Part shown: positions 25,831-58,164 of the stretch, piece by piece
Numbering within the stretch: position 1 is the first letter of the stretch
Layout: every line of letters begins with the position of its first letter
DNA from: Candidatus Peribacteraceae bacterium
Lineage (GTDB): Bacteria; Patescibacteriota; Gracilibacteria; Peribacterales; Peribacteraceae
Assembly: GCA_028703445.1 (NCBI GenBank)
Contig: JAQVMW010000004.1
Location: 52,127-116,126 of the forward strand
Direction: 5' to 3'
Length of the DNA: 64,000 nt
The notes under the pieces: model-generated
Database searches by the model: none
Told to the model about the DNA's origin: nothing
The model's input: only the letters and a program-made list of their open reading frames with translations
Program-made: the position numbers and the translations under genes

Positions 25831-26061
25831 ATGCCCACCAAGAAGCGCCGCCTCAACGTCACACTCAAGAAAGATGTGGCCCTATACCTCAAGAAGCTCG
25901 CTCTTCGCGATGACATGCCTGAGGCAACCAAGGCAGCACAGATGATCGAAACCGCCATGGAAATTGAAGAGGATCTCTACTTGAGCCGCATTGCCGATGA
26001 TCGGTTCGCGCGGACAAAGAAGTGGATCTCTCATGAGGAATTCTGGTCGAAGCTCTTATGA
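25831..26061 (+). CDS. RHH-type antitoxin
   Basis: KKRRLNVTLKKDVALYLKKLALRDDMPEATKAAQMIETAMEIEED...SHEEFWSKLL; overlaps the toxin gene by ATGA. Confidence 0.8.
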   Translation: MPTKKRRLNVTLKKDVALYLKKLALRDDMPEATKAAQMIETAMEIEEDLYLSRIADDRFARTKKWISHEEFWSKLL

Positions 26062-26324
26062 AATATAAGATCTCGTACAGTGCACTCCACGATCCGAAAA
26101 GTCTCAAGAAGATTGATAGATCGGATTTATCTGCAATCAAGCAAGCGATCGAGGAAAAACTGACGATTGCACCTGAGGCATTCGGAAAACCTCTGAAATT
26201 CTCGCTGAAAGGTCTGCGTAGCCTTCGTGTCGGGGACTTCAGGGTTCTCTACTGTATAGATGGACTCATTGTCCGCATCACTCATGTCGCCCACCGCTCG
26301 ACGATCTACCGCGACGCAAAATAG
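26058..26324 (+). CDS. RelE/ParE-family toxin
   Basis: MKYKISYSALHDPKSLKKIDRSDLSAIKQAIEEKL...LRVGDFRVLYCIDGLIVRITHVAHRSTIYR. Confidence 0.85.
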   Translation: MKYKISYSALHDPKSLKKIDRSDLSAIKQAIEEKLTIAPEAFGKPLKFSLKGLRSLRVGDFRVLYCIDGLIVRITHVAHRSTIYRDAK

Positions 26325-26495: not shown

Positions 26496-28001
26496 GTGTG
26501 CGGAATAATCGCAGTCGCCGGCTTCAGAGATGTGATTCAGGATCTCTATGACGGCCTCATCCTCCTCCAGCATCGCGGTCAGGACGCAGCAGGCATCATC
26601 ACCTATAACAGCCAATTCCATCTGAAGAAAGCAAACGGTCTCGTACAGGACGTCTTTCATGATAAATCCCTCCTGCGTCTGCGCGGCACCATGGGCGTGG
26701 GACATGTGCGGTACCCCACGGCCGGTTGCTCGAGTGAATTCGAGGCGCAGCCCTTCTTCGTGTCGACACCGTTCGGCATCGCCTTGGCGCACAACGGCAA
26801 CCTCACGAATGCCGCGGAACTGCGCAAGTTCCTGCTCGAGAAGGAGTACCGCCACCTCAACACGAATTCCGACTCCGAAGTGCTGCTCAATGTCCTCTCC
26901 GTCGCGATCCGCAATCAGCGGCCGAAGGGGCGCCTCACGCCTGACCAAGTCTTCAGCGCCATGAAGAGCGTCTACAAGCGGTGTAAGGGCGCCTATTCTG
27001 CCGTGGCGCTGATCGGCGGCCAGGGGATCCTCGGCTTCCGCGATCCACACGGCATTCGCCCGCTCCAGATCGGCAAGCGCAAGTTTGGCATGAAGGAGGA
27101 ATACATCCTCGCCTCCGAAAACTCCGCCTTTCCCGCACTCGAATTCGAATTCGTGCGGGACGTGCGTCCCGGCGAAGCGGTTTTCATCGACCACAAGAAC
27201 CGCCTGCACTCCCGGCAGGTCCGGCACGGCGAACTCAATCCCTGCATCTTCGAATGGGTGTACCTCGCGGCACCCGACTCTACCCTCGACGGCGTGAACG
27301 TGTACAAGGCCCGCGTTCGCATGGGCGAAGCACTCGCGCGCCAAATCAAGAAGGCCGGCATTCATATTGATTCCGTGGTCCCCGTACCCGATACGGGCCG
27401 GCCCGTTGCGGCCGGGCTCGCAAGCAAGCTCAACGTGCGCTACCGCGAGGGACTCATCAAAAACCGCTATATCCACCGCACATTCATCATGCCGGGCCAG
27501 TCCATGCGTAAGCGCAGTCTGCACTTCAAGCTCCATCCAATCGAGCTCGAGTTCAAAGGCAAGTCCGTGCTGCTCGTGGATGACTCCATCGTACGCGGAA
27601 ACACCAGTAAGAAAATTGTGGAGCTTGTGCGCGAGGCAGGGGCCAAAAAAGTCTATTTCGCTTCGGCCGCTCCCCCCATCATCAGCCCGGATCCCTACGG
27701 CATTGACCTGCCCACCACCGAGGAGCTCATCGGCGCCAACATGTCGGTGGAAGAGATCCGCAAGTACATCAAGGCCGACGGTCTCTTCTACGGCTCGATC
27801 GATGACCTGCACAAATCCATTCAGTACGGTAACCCCCGCATCAAGTGCTTCAGCGAAGGTTGCTTCACCAAGAAGTACCCCACCCCCGAAGTGACTCCAA
27901 AATTGCTCAAGGAACTCGGCAGCTGCCGCAACCAAACGCGCGAGTCCTTTCAGCAAGACGAAGAGGAAGGTGATAGTCAGAAAATGCTCGCACTGGTGTA
28001 A
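26496..28001 (+). CDS. purF: Amidophosphoribosyltransferase (GTG start)
   Basis: MCGIIAVAG catalytic Cys, LLQHRGQDAAGI, GHVRYPTAG, VLLVDDSIVRGNTS PRPP motif. Confidence 0.97.
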   Translation: MCGIIAVAGFRDVIQDLYDGLILLQHRGQDAAGIITYNSQFHLKKANGLVQDVFHDKSLLRLRGTMGVGHVRYPTAGCSSEFEAQPFFVSTPFGIALAHNGNLTNAAELRKFLLEKEYRHLNTNSDSEVLLNVLSVAIRNQRPKGRLTPDQVFSAMKSVYKRCKGAYSAVALIGGQGILGFRDPHGIRPLQIGKRKFGMKEEYILASENSAFPALEFEFVRDVRPGEAVFIDHKNRLHSRQVRHGELNPCIFEWVYLAAPDSTLDGVNVYKARVRMGEALARQIKKAGIHIDSVVPVPDTGRPVAAGLASKLNVRYREGLIKNRYIHRTFIMPGQSMRKRSLHFKLHPIELEFKGKSVLLVDDSIVRGNTSKKIVELVREAGAKKVYFASAAPPIISPDPYGIDLPTTEELIGANMSVEEIRKYIKADGLFYGSIDDLHKSIQYGNPRIKCFSEGCFTKKYPTPEVTPKLLKELGSCRNQTRESFQQDEEEGDSQKMLALV

Positions 28002-28056
28002 TGTGGATAGGCTTTGTGAAATCTGTTACATGAAAGAGACATATCAAACCATGTCC

Positions 28057-28086
28057 CGTAGCGGAAGATCGCGATCTTCCGCTACG
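28057..28086. repeat. 30-bp perfect palindrome, copy A, ending 2 nt before the start codon of the zinc-ribbon gene
   Basis: CGTAGCGGAAGATCG|CGATCTTCCGCTACG; identical to 56349..56378. Confidence 0.97.
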
Positions 28087-28088
28087 AT

Positions 28089-29756
28089 ATGCCGGTGCAG
28101 CAGACCTGCCGCCACTGCCAATCGCTCTTCGAGGTCACGAATGACGATCTCGTGTTTTACGACCGCGTTTCACCGGTGTTTGCCGGGAAGAAAGAGCTGA
28201 TCCCGCCGCCGACCCTCTGCCCGGATTGCCGTCAGCAGCGCAGACTGACTTACCGCAATGAACTTCGCTTGTACCGTCGCAAATGTAGTAAGTGCAATGA
28301 GGAGATCGTGGCGATGTTTTCCGATACTGCGCCATACAAAGTGTATTGCCATCATTGCTGGTGGGATACATCGTTCGATGCGCGGAATTTCGGGAAGGAG
28401 TGGGATAAAAAGCGCAGCTTTTCCGAACAGTTTGCTGCGCTCATTAAACACACACCTCTCCCGCACCTGGTGATTGGTGATGCAGAGAACAGCGACTTCA
28501 CAAACTATTCATGGCAGAACAGGAACTGTTACATCCTCTCGAGTTCTGACTATAACGAGGACTGTTATTATTCCACGTACCTCTTCCGTTCACGTAGTTG
28601 TGTTGATTGCACATTCGTTGATGACTCAGAATTGCTCTATCAATGCGTTGATTCAAAAAAGTGCTATGATTCTCAGTTTCTGCAGCAGTGCCAGAACTGT
28701 TCGGATTGCATGTATTGCTATGACTGTCACTCCTGTCAAAATTGTTCCGGGTGTGTCGGGCAGCGGAATAAGAAGTATTGCCTTTTCAATGAACAACTCA
28801 CAGAAGAAGAATATGAAGAAAGAAAAAATGCACTCTCTCCTGCCATACTCGAAAGAAACTTTGAGAAGTTGAAACTCCAATTTCCCCATCGTTTTGCGGA
28901 ACTTGAACAGTGTGAACACTCGACAGGCAATCATCTGCAATCATGCAAAAATGCAGAACGTTGTTTCGATCTCGTGGAGGCCATAGATTGTCGATATTGT
29001 GCCCTCGGATTCAAGCTGAAGGATTGCATGGACTGCACAGGCACCACTGGGTGTGAATTGCTTTACCAGTCCGTTGCCAGTCCCGAGAATTACTCCATGC
29101 AATTCTCCTCGGTCATTTGGCCGAAATCCTCTTTTTTACAGTACTGCCTCTTCTCCCGCGCCTCACAACGTTGCTTTGGTTGTGTTTCACTCCACAAAAA
29201 CGAGTACTGCATTCTCAACAAGCAGTACACCAAAGAAGAATATGAGAAGCTTGTTCCCGAGATTATCGCCAAGATGCGTGCAGAAGGGGAGTGGGGCGAG
29301 TTCTTCCCCGTCTCCATGAGTCCCTTTGTCTACAACGAAACCGTGGCACAGGAGTACTTCCCGATGACAAAAGAGGAAGTTCTCAGGCGAGGATGGCAGT
29401 GGCGCGATCAGAAAGACGAAATGCCAAAGGTTTCGAAGATAATCGCGGCAGAGAAACTTCCGGACGATATCGCAAATGTTCCGGATAACATTTTGATCTG
29501 GGCGATTGAGTGCGAAGCGACGAAGCGACCCTTCAAGATCGTCAAACAGGAATTGGACTTCTACCGGAAAATGAAGCTCCCGATCCCCCACTTCCACCCC
29601 GATGAGCGGCACAAAAGGAGGATGATGCTTAGAAATCCGCGCAAGCTCTGGAGCCGCAATTGTGCCAAGTGCCAAAAGCCGATAGCCACAAGCTACCCGC
29701 CCGAACGACCAGAAATCGTCTTTTGCGAAGCTTGCTACCTCGCCACAGTCTATTGA
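28089..29756 (+). CDS. Large Cys-rich multi-zinc-ribbon protein, paralog A
   Basis: Dozens of CxxC-type motifs; collinear with 56390..58069 (CRHCQSLFEVTNDDLVFYDRVSPVFAGKKELIPPPTLCPDCRQQRR; ATKRPFKIVKQELDFYRKMKLPIPHFHPDERH). Confidence 0.9.
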   Translation: MPVQQTCRHCQSLFEVTNDDLVFYDRVSPVFAGKKELIPPPTLCPDCRQQRRLTYRNELRLYRRKCSKCNEEIVAMFSDTAPYKVYCHHCWWDTSFDARNFGKEWDKKRSFSEQFAALIKHTPLPHLVIGDAENSDFTNYSWQNRNCYILSSSDYNEDCYYSTYLFRSRSCVDCTFVDDSELLYQCVDSKKCYDSQFLQQCQNCSDCMYCYDCHSCQNCSGCVGQRNKKYCLFNEQLTEEEYEERKNALSPAILERNFEKLKLQFPHRFAELEQCEHSTGNHLQSCKNAERCFDLVEAIDCRYCALGFKLKDCMDCTGTTGCELLYQSVASPENYSMQFSSVIWPKSSFLQYCLFSRASQRCFGCVSLHKNEYCILNKQYTKEEYEKLVPEIIAKMRAEGEWGEFFPVSMSPFVYNETVAQEYFPMTKEEVLRRGWQWRDQKDEMPKVSKIIAAEKLPDDIANVPDNILIWAIECEATKRPFKIVKQELDFYRKMKLPIPHFHPDERHKRRMMLRNPRKLWSRNCAKCQKPIATSYPPERPEIVFCEACYLATVY

Positions 29757-29810
29757 TCTTGCATGCCGGTGTACTCAAGGTCGTTCTGGTCGGGCGGGTG
29801 CGCCCAAGCG

Positions 29811-29859
29811 GCCGGAGATCGTGTACGGTGAAAATTGCTATCTTAAAGAAGTGTACTGA
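29811..29859 (+). pseudogene. Decayed 3'-end fragment of a zinc-ribbon paralog
   Basis: RPEIVYGENCYLKEVY* aligns with the gene A terminus PEIVFCEACYLATVY*. Confidence 0.75.
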
Positions 29860-29927
29860 GCAATTTTCACCCTGCCTGCCCGTCCGTAGCCCGAAGGGCG
29901 AAGGCGGGAGCGAGCAGAGCGAGTCGA

Positions 29928-29963
29928 ATGGGCGAGGAATGTTATCTGCAAGAGGTGTATTAG
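29928..29963 (+). pseudogene. Second decayed 3'-end fragment of a zinc-ribbon paralog
   Basis: MGEECYLQEVY* directly before a GC-rich palindromic element remnant. Confidence 0.65.
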
Positions 29964-30053
29964 CACTGTCATCCTGAGCTCTGTCGAAGGATGACGCCGC
30001 ATTGCCATGGTTTGACAGGGCTCACCATGACAATGCTTTGCTATACTGCTGAT

Positions 30054-31382
30054 ATGAAGATCCTCCTCGTCGCCTCCGGCGCCCGCGAACACGCCATCGC
30101 CGATGCGCTCTCAAGGAGTCCGCAGAAACCCGAGATCATTTCGATCTGCACCACTCGAAATCCCGGACTGAAGAATCTTTCCCGTGAACTCCATGTGGGC
30201 AACATCCTCGATTTTCCGTGGGTGATGGAAATCGCGAAGCAGACCAAGCCCGATCTCGCCATCGTCGGCCCGGATGACCCCATCGGAGGAGGGCTCGCCG
30301 ATCTGCTGGAAGCCGCAGGCATTCCGACCGTCGCACCGAAGAAGTCACTCGCGCGCATCGAGTCGAGCAAAAGTTTCGCCCGCGACCTGCTCCAGAAAGC
30401 CATTCCTGATTCCGTGCCGAAATATCGTGTTTTCACCTCGTACGAGCCAAAAGAACTGAATAAATTTATTGCGCAAGATTTGAAGGGCGACTACGTGGTG
30501 AAGTACGACGCCCTCAAGGGCGGCAAGGGGGTGAAAGTGAGCGGCGAACATCTGGCCACCATCGAGGAGGGCATGCAGTACGCCAAAGAGTGTATCGAAG
30601 AAGGAGGGCGCGTGGTCATTGAAGAGAAACTCGTCGGGGTGGAGTTCAGTCTGCTCTCGTTCGTCTCCGGCACGCAGGTCATCGACATGCCGGCAATCCA
30701 GGATCACAAGCGCGCGTACGCAGGGGACACCGGCCCGAACACGGGCGGCATGGGAACCTACACGGACAGCGATCACTCACTGCCTTTCCTCGAAGAAAGA
30801 GACCTTCAGCGCGCGAGTGAGATCAATCGGCTCACCGCTCAAGCACTGCTTCGAGAATGTAGAGAACCATTCCGTGGCATCCTGTACGGAGGCTTCATCG
30901 CCGTCAAAGACGGTATCCGCGTGATCGAATTTAACGCACGCTTCGGCGATCCCGAGGCGCTCAACGTGCTCCCACTCCTCTCTTCTGATTTCGCTGAGAT
31001 CTGTCGAGCCATCACGCAGGGAACGCTCACAGAGGACTTGGTCCGCTTCGATCACAAAGCCACTGTCTGCAAGTACCTCGCGCCCGAGAGCTACCCCGTG
31101 AGTAAAGACCAGAAAGGCACCGTGGTCACCTTCCCGCCGGTACCCAAGAATGCACGCCTCTTCTTCGGAGACATCGCGGAGGATGAACAAGGTCTCCTGC
31201 ATGTGGGAGGATCGCGCACGGCAGGAATCGTCGGCATCGGAAATAGTATCGCGGAGGCAGAACAGGTCGCCGAAGAATTTTGCAGAAAGGTGCAGGGGCA
31301 GGTGCGTCATCGTGAGGACATCGGCACGGCTGCGCTCATTGGGCAGAGAATGAAAACGATGCGCTCTCTGCGTGTTCGGTAG
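30054..31382 (+). CDS. purD: Phosphoribosylamine-glycine ligase
   Basis: VKYDALKGGKGV, GDTGPNTGGMGTYT, VIEFNARFGDPEALNVLPLL. Confidence 0.95.
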   Translation: MKILLVASGAREHAIADALSRSPQKPEIISICTTRNPGLKNLSRELHVGNILDFPWVMEIAKQTKPDLAIVGPDDPIGGGLADLLEAAGIPTVAPKKSLARIESSKSFARDLLQKAIPDSVPKYRVFTSYEPKELNKFIAQDLKGDYVVKYDALKGGKGVKVSGEHLATIEEGMQYAKECIEEGGRVVIEEKLVGVEFSLLSFVSGTQVIDMPAIQDHKRAYAGDTGPNTGGMGTYTDSDHSLPFLEERDLQRASEINRLTAQALLRECREPFRGILYGGFIAVKDGIRVIEFNARFGDPEALNVLPLLSSDFAEICRAITQGTLTEDLVRFDHKATVCKYLAPESYPVSKDQKGTVVTFPPVPKNARLFFGDIAEDEQGLLHVGGSRTAGIVGIGNSIAEAEQVAEEFCRKVQGQVRHREDIGTAALIGQRMKTMRSLRVR

Positions 31383-56348: not shown

Positions 56349-56378
56349 CGTAGCGGAAGATCGCGATCTTCCGCTACG
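56349..56378. repeat. 30-bp perfect palindrome, copy B, upstream of zinc-ribbon paralog B
   Basis: Identical to 28057..28086; outer CAGGAATA (56320-56327) / TATTCCTG (56380-56387) extends the inverted repeat. Confidence 0.97.
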
Positions 56379-56389
56379 GTATTCCTGTG

Positions 56390-58069
56390 ATGCACACCTG
56401 CCGCAACCTGTGGTGCAAGCAACCCTTCGAGATCACCGACGATGACCTTTCCTTCTACGAAAAAATCTCACCGGTTTTCAATGGCAAGAGAGAATTGATC
56501 CCGCCGCCTCTGCTCTGCCCGGAGTGCCGGTTGCAGCGGAGACAGGCGTTCCGTAATGAGCATTGTCTCTCCAAGCGCACCTGCGACCTCTGCGGGAAAC
56601 TGACCATTTCCTCTTTTGCCTCCGAGAGTCCTTTCCCGGTGTACTGCAGTGATTGCTGGTGGTCGGACCGCTGGGATCCCGCGGATTACGGAAGGGAGTT
56701 CGACTTCACCCGTCCTTTCTTTCCCCAATTCGAAGAGCTCCAGCACAGTGTGCCACAGGCCGCCGCTCTCCAACTCAACAACGAGAACTGTGAATTTAAT
56801 CACCTCCTCGCTTTCAGCAAGAACGCCTACCTGTGCCCGGGGAGCTACTGCGTCGAAGATTGCTACTACCTGCGCAAGAGCCAGTACTGCCGTAACTGCG
56901 CGAACGGAAACATTCTCAATCGATGCGAGCTGGTCGCAGAGAGCCAAAATTGCGACGGCTGCGTCTCTTCGCACCACCTCATCAATTGCCGTAACTGCTC
57001 TTTCAGTAGTTACCTAAATGACTCTTCTGGCCTCAGGGATTGCTTCATGTGCAGCGGGCTCATGAACAAACAGTACTGCTTCAAGAATGAGAAGTTCACG
57101 CGCGCCAAGTACGAGGAGACACTCCGGCAGTACGCCGGAAAATCCCCGGAAACACTGTTCTCGGAATTTCAGGAATTCAATCGCACTACACCTAAGCGAG
57201 CCCAAATTCAGCTCCACTGCGAGAATTCCACGGGCGACTACCTCACGAATTGCCACGCCGCCCGTCACTGCTCCGACTGCATCAACATCGAGGATTCCTC
57301 GTACATTGTCGAGTGCGAAGGAGTCAGGGATTCCATGGATTTGACCTCGCACGACAAGGATATCGAGCTCTGCTACGAGATGTCCTCCGGCGGCGAGAAG
57401 AGCTATCTGACGCGTTTCTGTTACTGCACCATCGCCTCCCCCCGCTCCGCGTACATGAGTTCGTGTTTCTACCAATCCGACAGCTTCGGGTGCGACGGAC
57501 TGCACACACGGGGTCAGTACTGCATCCTCAACAAGCAATACTCCAAAGAAGCATACGAAAAACTCGTACCCAAGATCATCGCACACATGAGAGGGACGAA
57601 AGAATGGGGTGAATTCTTCCCGATTGAGAGAAGCCCTTACGCCTACAATGAATCCGTCGCCCAAGACTACTTCCCGCTCACGAAAGAGGGGACGGGGAAA
57701 CGGGAATGGCAATGGAAAGATCGAACGGACGAGATGCCGAAACTCTCGAAAGTGATTTCCGCTGTGAATCTGCCAGATTCGATTGAGGAGGTTCCCGACG
57801 ATATTGTGAACTGGGCAATTGAGTGCGAAGCGACCAAGAGACCCTTCAAAATCATCAAACAGGAACTGGATTTCTACCGGAAGATGAAGTTACCGATCCC
57901 GCACTTTCACCCCGATGAGCGGCACAGGAGGAGGATGGCGCTCCGGAATCCCCGTAAACTCTGGAAGAGGCCGTGCATGAAATGCAGTAAAGAAATGCAA
58001 ACAACGTACTCTCCCGATAGACCAGAGGTTGTGTATTGCGAATCTTGTTATTTGGCTTCAGTATATTGA
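56390..58069 (+). CDS. Large Cys-rich multi-zinc-ribbon protein, paralog B (alternative GTG at 56387)
   Basis: CRNLWCKQPFEITDDDLSFYEKISPVFNGKRELIPPPLLCPECRLQRRQAFRNEHCL; near-identical C-terminal third with paralog A. Confidence 0.9.
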   Translation: MHTCRNLWCKQPFEITDDDLSFYEKISPVFNGKRELIPPPLLCPECRLQRRQAFRNEHCLSKRTCDLCGKLTISSFASESPFPVYCSDCWWSDRWDPADYGREFDFTRPFFPQFEELQHSVPQAAALQLNNENCEFNHLLAFSKNAYLCPGSYCVEDCYYLRKSQYCRNCANGNILNRCELVAESQNCDGCVSSHHLINCRNCSFSSYLNDSSGLRDCFMCSGLMNKQYCFKNEKFTRAKYEETLRQYAGKSPETLFSEFQEFNRTTPKRAQIQLHCENSTGDYLTNCHAARHCSDCINIEDSSYIVECEGVRDSMDLTSHDKDIELCYEMSSGGEKSYLTRFCYCTIASPRSAYMSSCFYQSDSFGCDGLHTRGQYCILNKQYSKEAYEKLVPKIIAHMRGTKEWGEFFPIERSPYAYNESVAQDYFPLTKEGTGKREWQWKDRTDEMPKLSKVISAVNLPDSIEEVPDDIVNWAIECEATKRPFKIIKQELDFYRKMKLPIPHFHPDERHRRRMALRNPRKLWKRPCMKCSKEMQTTYSPDRPEVVYCESCYLASVY

Positions 58070-58128
58070 GATGCAAAATCCCTTCTTCTGGTGCAACAAG
58101 ATTCGCCCTGAGCGGAGCGAAGCGGAGA

Positions 58129-58164
58129 ATGGGTGAGGAGTGTTATTTGAAGGGGGTGTATTAA
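58129..58164 (+). pseudogene. Decayed 3'-end fragment of a zinc-ribbon paralog
   Basis: MGEECYLKGVY* following RPERSEAENG-encoding repeat sequence. Confidence 0.65.

Follow-up and report, generated by a model that had tools for sequence, protein, structure and literature searches.

Relocation and recurrent site occupation by genes for predicted zinc proteins in a Peribacteraceae bacterium

Genes of one family encoding Cys-rich, predicted zinc proteins in Peribacteria move between a tandem array and a few fixed spots on the chromosome, such that related species differ in the gene that is found at the same address. The stretch of DNA analysed here (the window) comprises 64,000 nucleotides of contig JAQVMW010000004.1 from a Candidatus Peribacteraceae bacterium and carries two members of this family, gene A between purF and purD, and gene B between the genes for alpha-2-macroglobulin and pbpC (Table 1). 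An earlier note on the same stretch had described a perfect 30-bp palindrome ending just before the start codon of a Cys-rich gene of ~555 aa, a lower GC content of this gene than of its neighbours, and a paralog with the same palindrome and a tail relic. All these features are present: the ORF is real, its GC content is 49.0% vs 58.6% for purF and 57.8% for purD, and the paralog is gene B.

Table 1. Features of the purF-purD interval and of the gene B locus (positions in the window)
Feature	Position	Strand	Description
purF, left flank	26496..28001	+	ORF; orthologs 89-96% in the genus and nearest genera, with purD directly after in G002, G004 and G020
Degraded 3' tail of upstream array gene and spacer (..TGTTACATGAAAGAGACATATCAAACCATGTCC)	28012..28056	+	Aligns to tail and spacer before palindromes C16:47929 and C16:55839
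30-bp perfect palindrome, GTAG-containing, REP-like	28057..28086	.	2 nt 5' of gene A ATG (28089)
Gene A	28089..29756	+	555-aa Cys-rich ORF; predicted N- and C-terminal zinc fingers and central Cys-rich beta-helix
Tail relic 1	29800..29859	+	In frame to stop (GAPKRPEIVYGENCYLKEVY-stop; ..APKRPEIVYGENCYLKEVY-stop); same layout after G001:C8:16782
Covarying hairpin	29827..29871	+	X GGTGAAAATTGC (29827-29838) and X' GCAATTTTCACC (29860-29871) form a pair, with the stop codon in between
REP-like GC-rich module spacer	29872..29927	+	CTGCCTGCCCGTCC..GAGTCGA
Tail relic 2	29928..29963	+	MGEECYLQEVY-stop
Array-type intergenic spacer	29964..30053	+	Two REP hairpins and TATACT; now immediately 5' of purD
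purD, right flank	30054..31382	+	ORF
Identical palindrome 5' of gene B	56349..56378	.	Sequence identity
Gene B, relocated family gene	56387..58069	+	Orthologs in G004 and G001 arrays; site empty in four sisters
Gene B module hairpin arms	58038..58106	+	GCGAATCTTGTT (58038-58049) / AACAAGATTCGC (58095-58106)
Gene B tail relic	58129..58164	+	MGEECYLKGVY-stop

The source genome (G000; 1.37 Mb in 23 contigs, Candidatus Peribacteria) encodes 15 full-length divergent paralogs including gene A, ten of them in one tandem array (C16:46-67 kb), and the others besides A at C16:27 kb, on C17 (two) and on C7 (gene B). Gene A is 32-50% identical to the 14 other full-length paralogs, and at ~1.7 kb each the 15 genes take up ~25 kb of the genome. 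The family is present in 23 of 39 relatives, for the most part draft assemblies, with 1-42 matches each and frequently as arrays. Both the content and the gene order of the arrays vary: the 46220 gene is at the array end in G000 and in the congener G004, and its ortholog in the congener G001 sits between the orthologs of the 50997 gene and of gene B. Genes for TrmB-like regulators, so labelled by sequence recognition rather than by profile, occupy conserved positions between the family genes in the arrays of several congeners (L029:230-991, L029:3290-4087, L148:9405-10166, L148:13799-14599) and might possibly regulate the arrays. In G000 and G003 the array is bordered by a small ORF (L029:16764-17153, L143:3825-4214) that resembles the four-helix-bundle, 23S rRNA intervening-sequence protein family. 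A phage or plasmid origin of the family was rejected, as there were no matches among phages, plasmids and viral contigs, the latter being scanned with short peptide patterns, which detect close relatives only. In the literature, covered mostly through openly accessible papers, we found no description of mobility for this family.

The Cys pairs at both ends of the protein are conserved in an alignment of 54 members, 46 of which match the Pfam treble-clef profile PF23477 (best 2.1e-7) and 27 the NCBIfam profile TIGR04272 (best 7.8e-7). Gene A itself has no match to curated zinc-finger profiles, and it is the profile matches of other members that place the family among the zinc fingers (treble clef / CxxC-x17-CxxC). 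In the AlphaFold2 model (pLDDT 86, pTM 0.86) small zinc-finger-like ends flank a central region of short strands, which we read as a probable Cys-rich beta-helix; Foldseek returned for this region weak matches to left-handed beta-helix proteins and nothing else, and a structure search with the confident model gave no PDB or BFVD match at E < 0.001. The family members may be intracellular zinc proteins. Since dN/dS ratios of orthologous pairs are 0.05-0.13, the genes are under purifying selection. Within the C-terminal finger it is the tail CEECYLKEVY that supplies the second pair of Cys residues, and this presumably explains the conservation of the amino acids of the tail.

The interval between purF and purD is variably occupied. 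The two genes are adjacent, with no family gene, in other genera of the Peribacteraceae wherever the site was seen (G006-G012, G015, G016, G020 and G021), and likewise in the congeners G002, where the gap is a few nt, and G004, where it is ~80-110 bp. A family gene is found there in three of the five congeners, G000, G001 and G003; G001 has one full gene, and G003 a toxin-antitoxin-like pair together with an internally deleted family gene of 203 aa that has retained its tail. Gene A and the occupant in G001 are 47% identical, whereas the purF proteins are 93% identical; a tree constrained to group the two occupants is worse by 71 log units (p-AU 0.00037), so that orthology is rejected, and in the tree the G001 gene is the sister of the G000 array gene C16:54136 (support 100/100). 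The site has been occupied recurrently by non-orthologous members of the family. On both sides of gene A there is sequence that the earlier note had passed over and that also resembles array sequence, namely a third tail relic upstream and the spacer before purD. Upstream, the relic alignments score 15 and 13 against a shuffle maximum of 11, a modest significance. On the purD side, tail relic 2 and the spacer align over ~118 nt to the spacer before the array gene G004:726212, with a score of 67 against a shuffle maximum of 16, and by this alignment the sequence between tail relic 2 and the start codon of purD is an array spacer. A toxin-antitoxin-like ORF pair lies at 25900-26324, immediately 5' of purF, and such pairs tend to occur at the sites that family genes occupy, as in G003, where one lies between purF and the family gene, and another beside HMGS.

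At the second locus in the window the genes for alpha-2-macroglobulin and pbpC are directly adjacent in all four congeners G001-G004. The orthologs of gene B are the array genes G004:726212 and G001:18696 (75% identity, support 99), and from the corresponding slot in the G000 array, between the C16:50997 gene and a TrmB-like regulator, the gene is absent. Gene B has demonstrably moved to an address unlike that of its array orthologs. A tail is left in the G000 slot, 1 base off the tail of the G004 ortholog over the last 27 nt; because other tails are nearly as close, an excision of gene B by tail-tail exchange is at most suggested. Similarly, the HMGR-HMGS site is empty in G002 and G004 and holds a family gene in G000 and G001, the common descent of the two occupants being not rejected (p-AU 0.14). 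In G000 the order at this site is palindrome-RAYT-palindrome-family gene-palindrome, and the G003 gene beside HMGS is 98% identical to the G000 occupant. At the secD region each of the five congeners carries a family gene, or two of them, and these genes are orthologous in part only. Taken together, the empty purF-purD site in sister species, the non-orthologous occupants in G000 and G001 and the relocation of gene B support the proposal of the earlier note that genes were repeatedly inserted or replaced at a fixed site, and the comparison of purF-purD spacing that it recommended turned up empty sites in congeners as well as in other genera. It had also named what would speak against the proposal, namely a palindrome confined to this locus and vertical descent of the gene; in fact the palindrome recurs and the occupants are non-orthologous. 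This distribution, with empty sites in close relatives at purF-purD, alpha2M-pbpC and HMGR-HMGS and with non-orthologous occupants, is that of a mobile gene family.

As to the mechanism, we infer, with moderate confidence, that the family genes move as cassettes through recombination at shared ends, and that REP/RAYT activity possibly starts some of the events. Cassettes would be exchanged between the array on the one hand and purF-purD, HMGR-HMGS, alpha2M-pbpC and the secD region on the other by a recombination, probably RecA-dependent, between ends common to all units, that is, the 3' zinc-knuckle tail (..CEECYLKEVY-stop) and the REP-bearing spacers with their promoter. Such exchange would leave orphan tails at the junctions, and nicking by RAYT may initiate some of the events. 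Apparently no dedicated integrase is involved. Tail-tail homology alone, however, would not account for entry into purF-purD, a site devoid of a tail.

One question then is what the palindrome contributes. Its occurrence is not a matter of chance, with none in dinucleotide shuffles and an expectation of ~0.0003 perfect palindromes of at least 28 bp per 64 kb. A search allowing up to 2 mismatches found ten copies in G000, dispersed and mainly intergenic (one with 2 mismatches, within the 18-bp core; reversed control 0). G002, G004 and G010 each have one copy or variant, the other relatives searched none. Five copies stand directly 5' of family genes and the other five away from them; copies are found 5' of HMGR and of a dtd-like gene, and a variant 3' of the tuf stop codon. 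The slot upstream of HMGR is taken in G002 by a different palindrome. The GTAG motif (CGTAGCGGAAG..CTTCCGCTACG) lies inside the symmetric palindrome. Five Y1_Tnp matches were found in G000, four of them above the cut-off. One of the RAYT-like ORFs, of 169 aa on C2 (L032:3430-3939, G000:C2:137.4-137.9 kb), contains the palindrome in frame within its coding sequence, in the manner of intragenic REPs or the Rickettsia palindromic elements; the RAYT on C16 is flanked by a pair of a different palindrome, and the three remaining ones have no palindrome of at least 18 bp within ~1.5 kb. The window also contains other dispersed repeats as inverted pairs, 4143-4241/23117-23200 (57 nt, 91%) and 37018-37073/60343-60398 (56 nt, 86%). 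The palindrome had been regarded as a signal of the cassette, a view that the copies away from the family, the one within a RAYT gene and the lack of a palindrome at comparably placed family genes, the G001 purF-purD gene among them, contradict; as a general cassette boundary it was rejected, being absent from relatives with genes at the same sites and having half of its copies elsewhere.

The copies 5' of gene A, C16:47929 and C16:55839 have in common a GTC.TGTCC-type spacer and the tail that precedes it, and the genes behind that spacer are only 42-49% identical to A; conversely, the 46220 ortholog has the palindrome spacer in G000 only, its sister orthologs carrying different ones. Because similar spacers precede divergent genes and the sister spacers of 46220 differ, spacers are exchanged independently of the gene bodies. 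We regard the palindrome, as part of the recombination model and with the same moderate confidence, as a REP-like repeat of RAYT type, which probably multiplied in the G000 lineage and is carried along as a hitchhiker within the spacers. An alternative that we deem unlikely is that of composite RAYT/REP units, in which the tyrosine transposase would excise and insert REP-bounded segments with family genes as cargo. It would accommodate the number of Y1_Tnp matches, the arrangement at HMGR-HMGS, the palindrome directly 5' of 5 of the 15 family genes and the REPs, of another type, in most tail modules; yet the palindrome is present on one side only of A and of B and is wanting at the G001 purF-purD gene, and REPs are not known to mobilise a cargo of 1.7 kb.

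The two tail-like stretches downstream of gene A exist as the earlier note had it, but not as decayed copies of the end of A itself, which reads CEACYLATVY; they resemble the CEN/CEECYLKEVY of other members. Nor do serial tails simply count insertions, since both relics belong to one tail-hairpin-REP-tail module, which is preceded by the tail of A and is of a kind that recurs at 3' ends in several genera. The tail pattern with 0 mismatches is confined to family-bearing genomes (reversed control 0 in 7/7 genomes searched). Among the fetched loci 27 distinct double tails were counted, from the genus, other genera and one other family of the class. In 20 of these the last eleven codons open with a sequence (GCGAATCCTG or GYGAAAATTGC type) that has a perfect complement of 8-12 nt, mostly immediately before a CCTGAG..GTCGAA REP; with swapped spacers complementarity was found in 15%, a background raised by the classes that modules have in common. 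In 19 modules the seven core columns pair in 19/19, columns 9, 10 and 11 show two or three types of Watson-Crick pair, and the folding energy of the whole module is only moderately better than that of shuffles (z +0.2 to -3.2). Most modules share the codon at which the hairpin arms begin, and second tails start repeatedly at the same position. The hairpin is confined to genes with an orphan tail and REP behind them, and most array genes, including all of those in G004, do without it; the first-tail residues ES or EN accompany the module. That the second tail can carry the gene-specific residues of the first (ASVY/ASVY in G001) points to local duplication. We rejected the reading of tail relic 2 as a small gene of its own, because a copy in G001 has ACG for ATG. 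Also rejected was the idea that inserted REPs generally cause the duplication of 3' ends, since REPs outside family genes rarely have flanking duplications. One double tail (L147:7042-7200, G002:C28) is split by another hairpin repeat (GGGATAAGTATGAAGGGG..), and since this separator is not a CCTGAG REP, tails are duplicated also with unrelated palindromic inserts.

The covariation of the arms may result from selection on RNA, from processing of single-stranded DNA or from templated repair. It is a rather doubtful possibility that cassettes recombine at this module in a system that needs no integrase, with folded single strands of the 3' coding end being cut by a RAYT-type HUH transposase or an Xer recombinase. 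Doubtful, too, is an integron-like site-specific system with the tail hairpin as a folded, attC-like site for a putative recombinase. The arrays do consist of same-orientation cassettes in a gene-plus-3'-site layout, the arms start from the same codon and pair throughout with compensatory changes, and second tails have a recurrent start. Against this, tyrosine recombinases of Xer-like size number two in G000 (the only Phage_integrase matches, in open frames of 316 aa and 331 aa on contigs C8 and C19), both away from the arrays, and one in G001; the hairpin is limited to genes followed by orphan tail and REP; and there is no IntI-type integrase by the arrays on C16 and C17. Integron cassette arrays likewise combine same-orientation genes with structured 3' elements and are reshuffled in content between relatives, but here a single homologous family is involved, the genes have their own spacers and promoter-like motifs, and a hairpin is found in a subset only.

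Ordinary birth-and-death without mobility, in which every site had its copy from ancient times and the copies were then differentially lost, diverged fast and underwent gene conversion, is disfavoured and very improbable. Occupation of the secD site in all five congeners fits it, as does gene conversion of spacers, likely because the 46220 ortholog has the palindrome spacer in G000 only; it is opposed by the emptiness of purF-purD in sisters and outgroups, the rejected orthology of its occupants, and the vacant gene B site in four sisters with B orthologs in arrays. We give hardly any credence to the palindrome being not a repeat but a transcription-factor operator of the family (e.g. for the TrmB-like regulators), for although it precedes -10-like motifs in 5 family genes as well as HMGR and the dtd-like gene, it is missing from orthologous promoters of sister species, replaced by a different palindrome 5' of HMGR in G002, and found within a coding region and, as a variant, after the tuf stop codon.

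The repeat resembles the REP/RAYT systems, REPtrons and TIRtrons (PMC2817692, PMC3733652) in being a short, perfect GTAG palindrome, dispersed, mostly intergenic and of lineage-specific copy number; as in REP/RAYT, it is found beside and inside Y1_Tnp genes, and palindromes in the same slot differ between species and stay self-complementary. It is unlike them in having only 10 copies, full symmetry with the GTAG head included in the palindrome, a location 5' of members of a single gene family for half of the copies, and a patescibacterial host, a group absent from the GTAG-REP host list of PMC3733652. With tandem multigene families that have dispersed loci the genes share a central array and single loci, high paralog divergence and conserved recombinable ends; unlike variable gene families, they encode predicted zinc proteins and their orthologs are under purifying selection. 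A Cys-rich gene cluster was noted as a genome feature of Candidatus Peribacter riflensis (PMC4736985), which is of the same lineage (congener G004). The proteins in question are large, averaging 1,655 aa, and for most of them a signal peptide is predicted, unlike the family described here, and the parts of that account available to us describe neither mobility nor tail modules.

Systems that shuffle genes are rarely attributed to the Patescibacteria, whose genomes are reduced. In the present case, one family under purifying selection changes position at defined sites between congeneric species, and it offers testable insertion sites with a clear comparison of before and after. The covarying 3' module could be an RNA element or a recombination site, and if the latter were true, each exchange would swap the gene body while a functional zinc-knuckle end is preserved.
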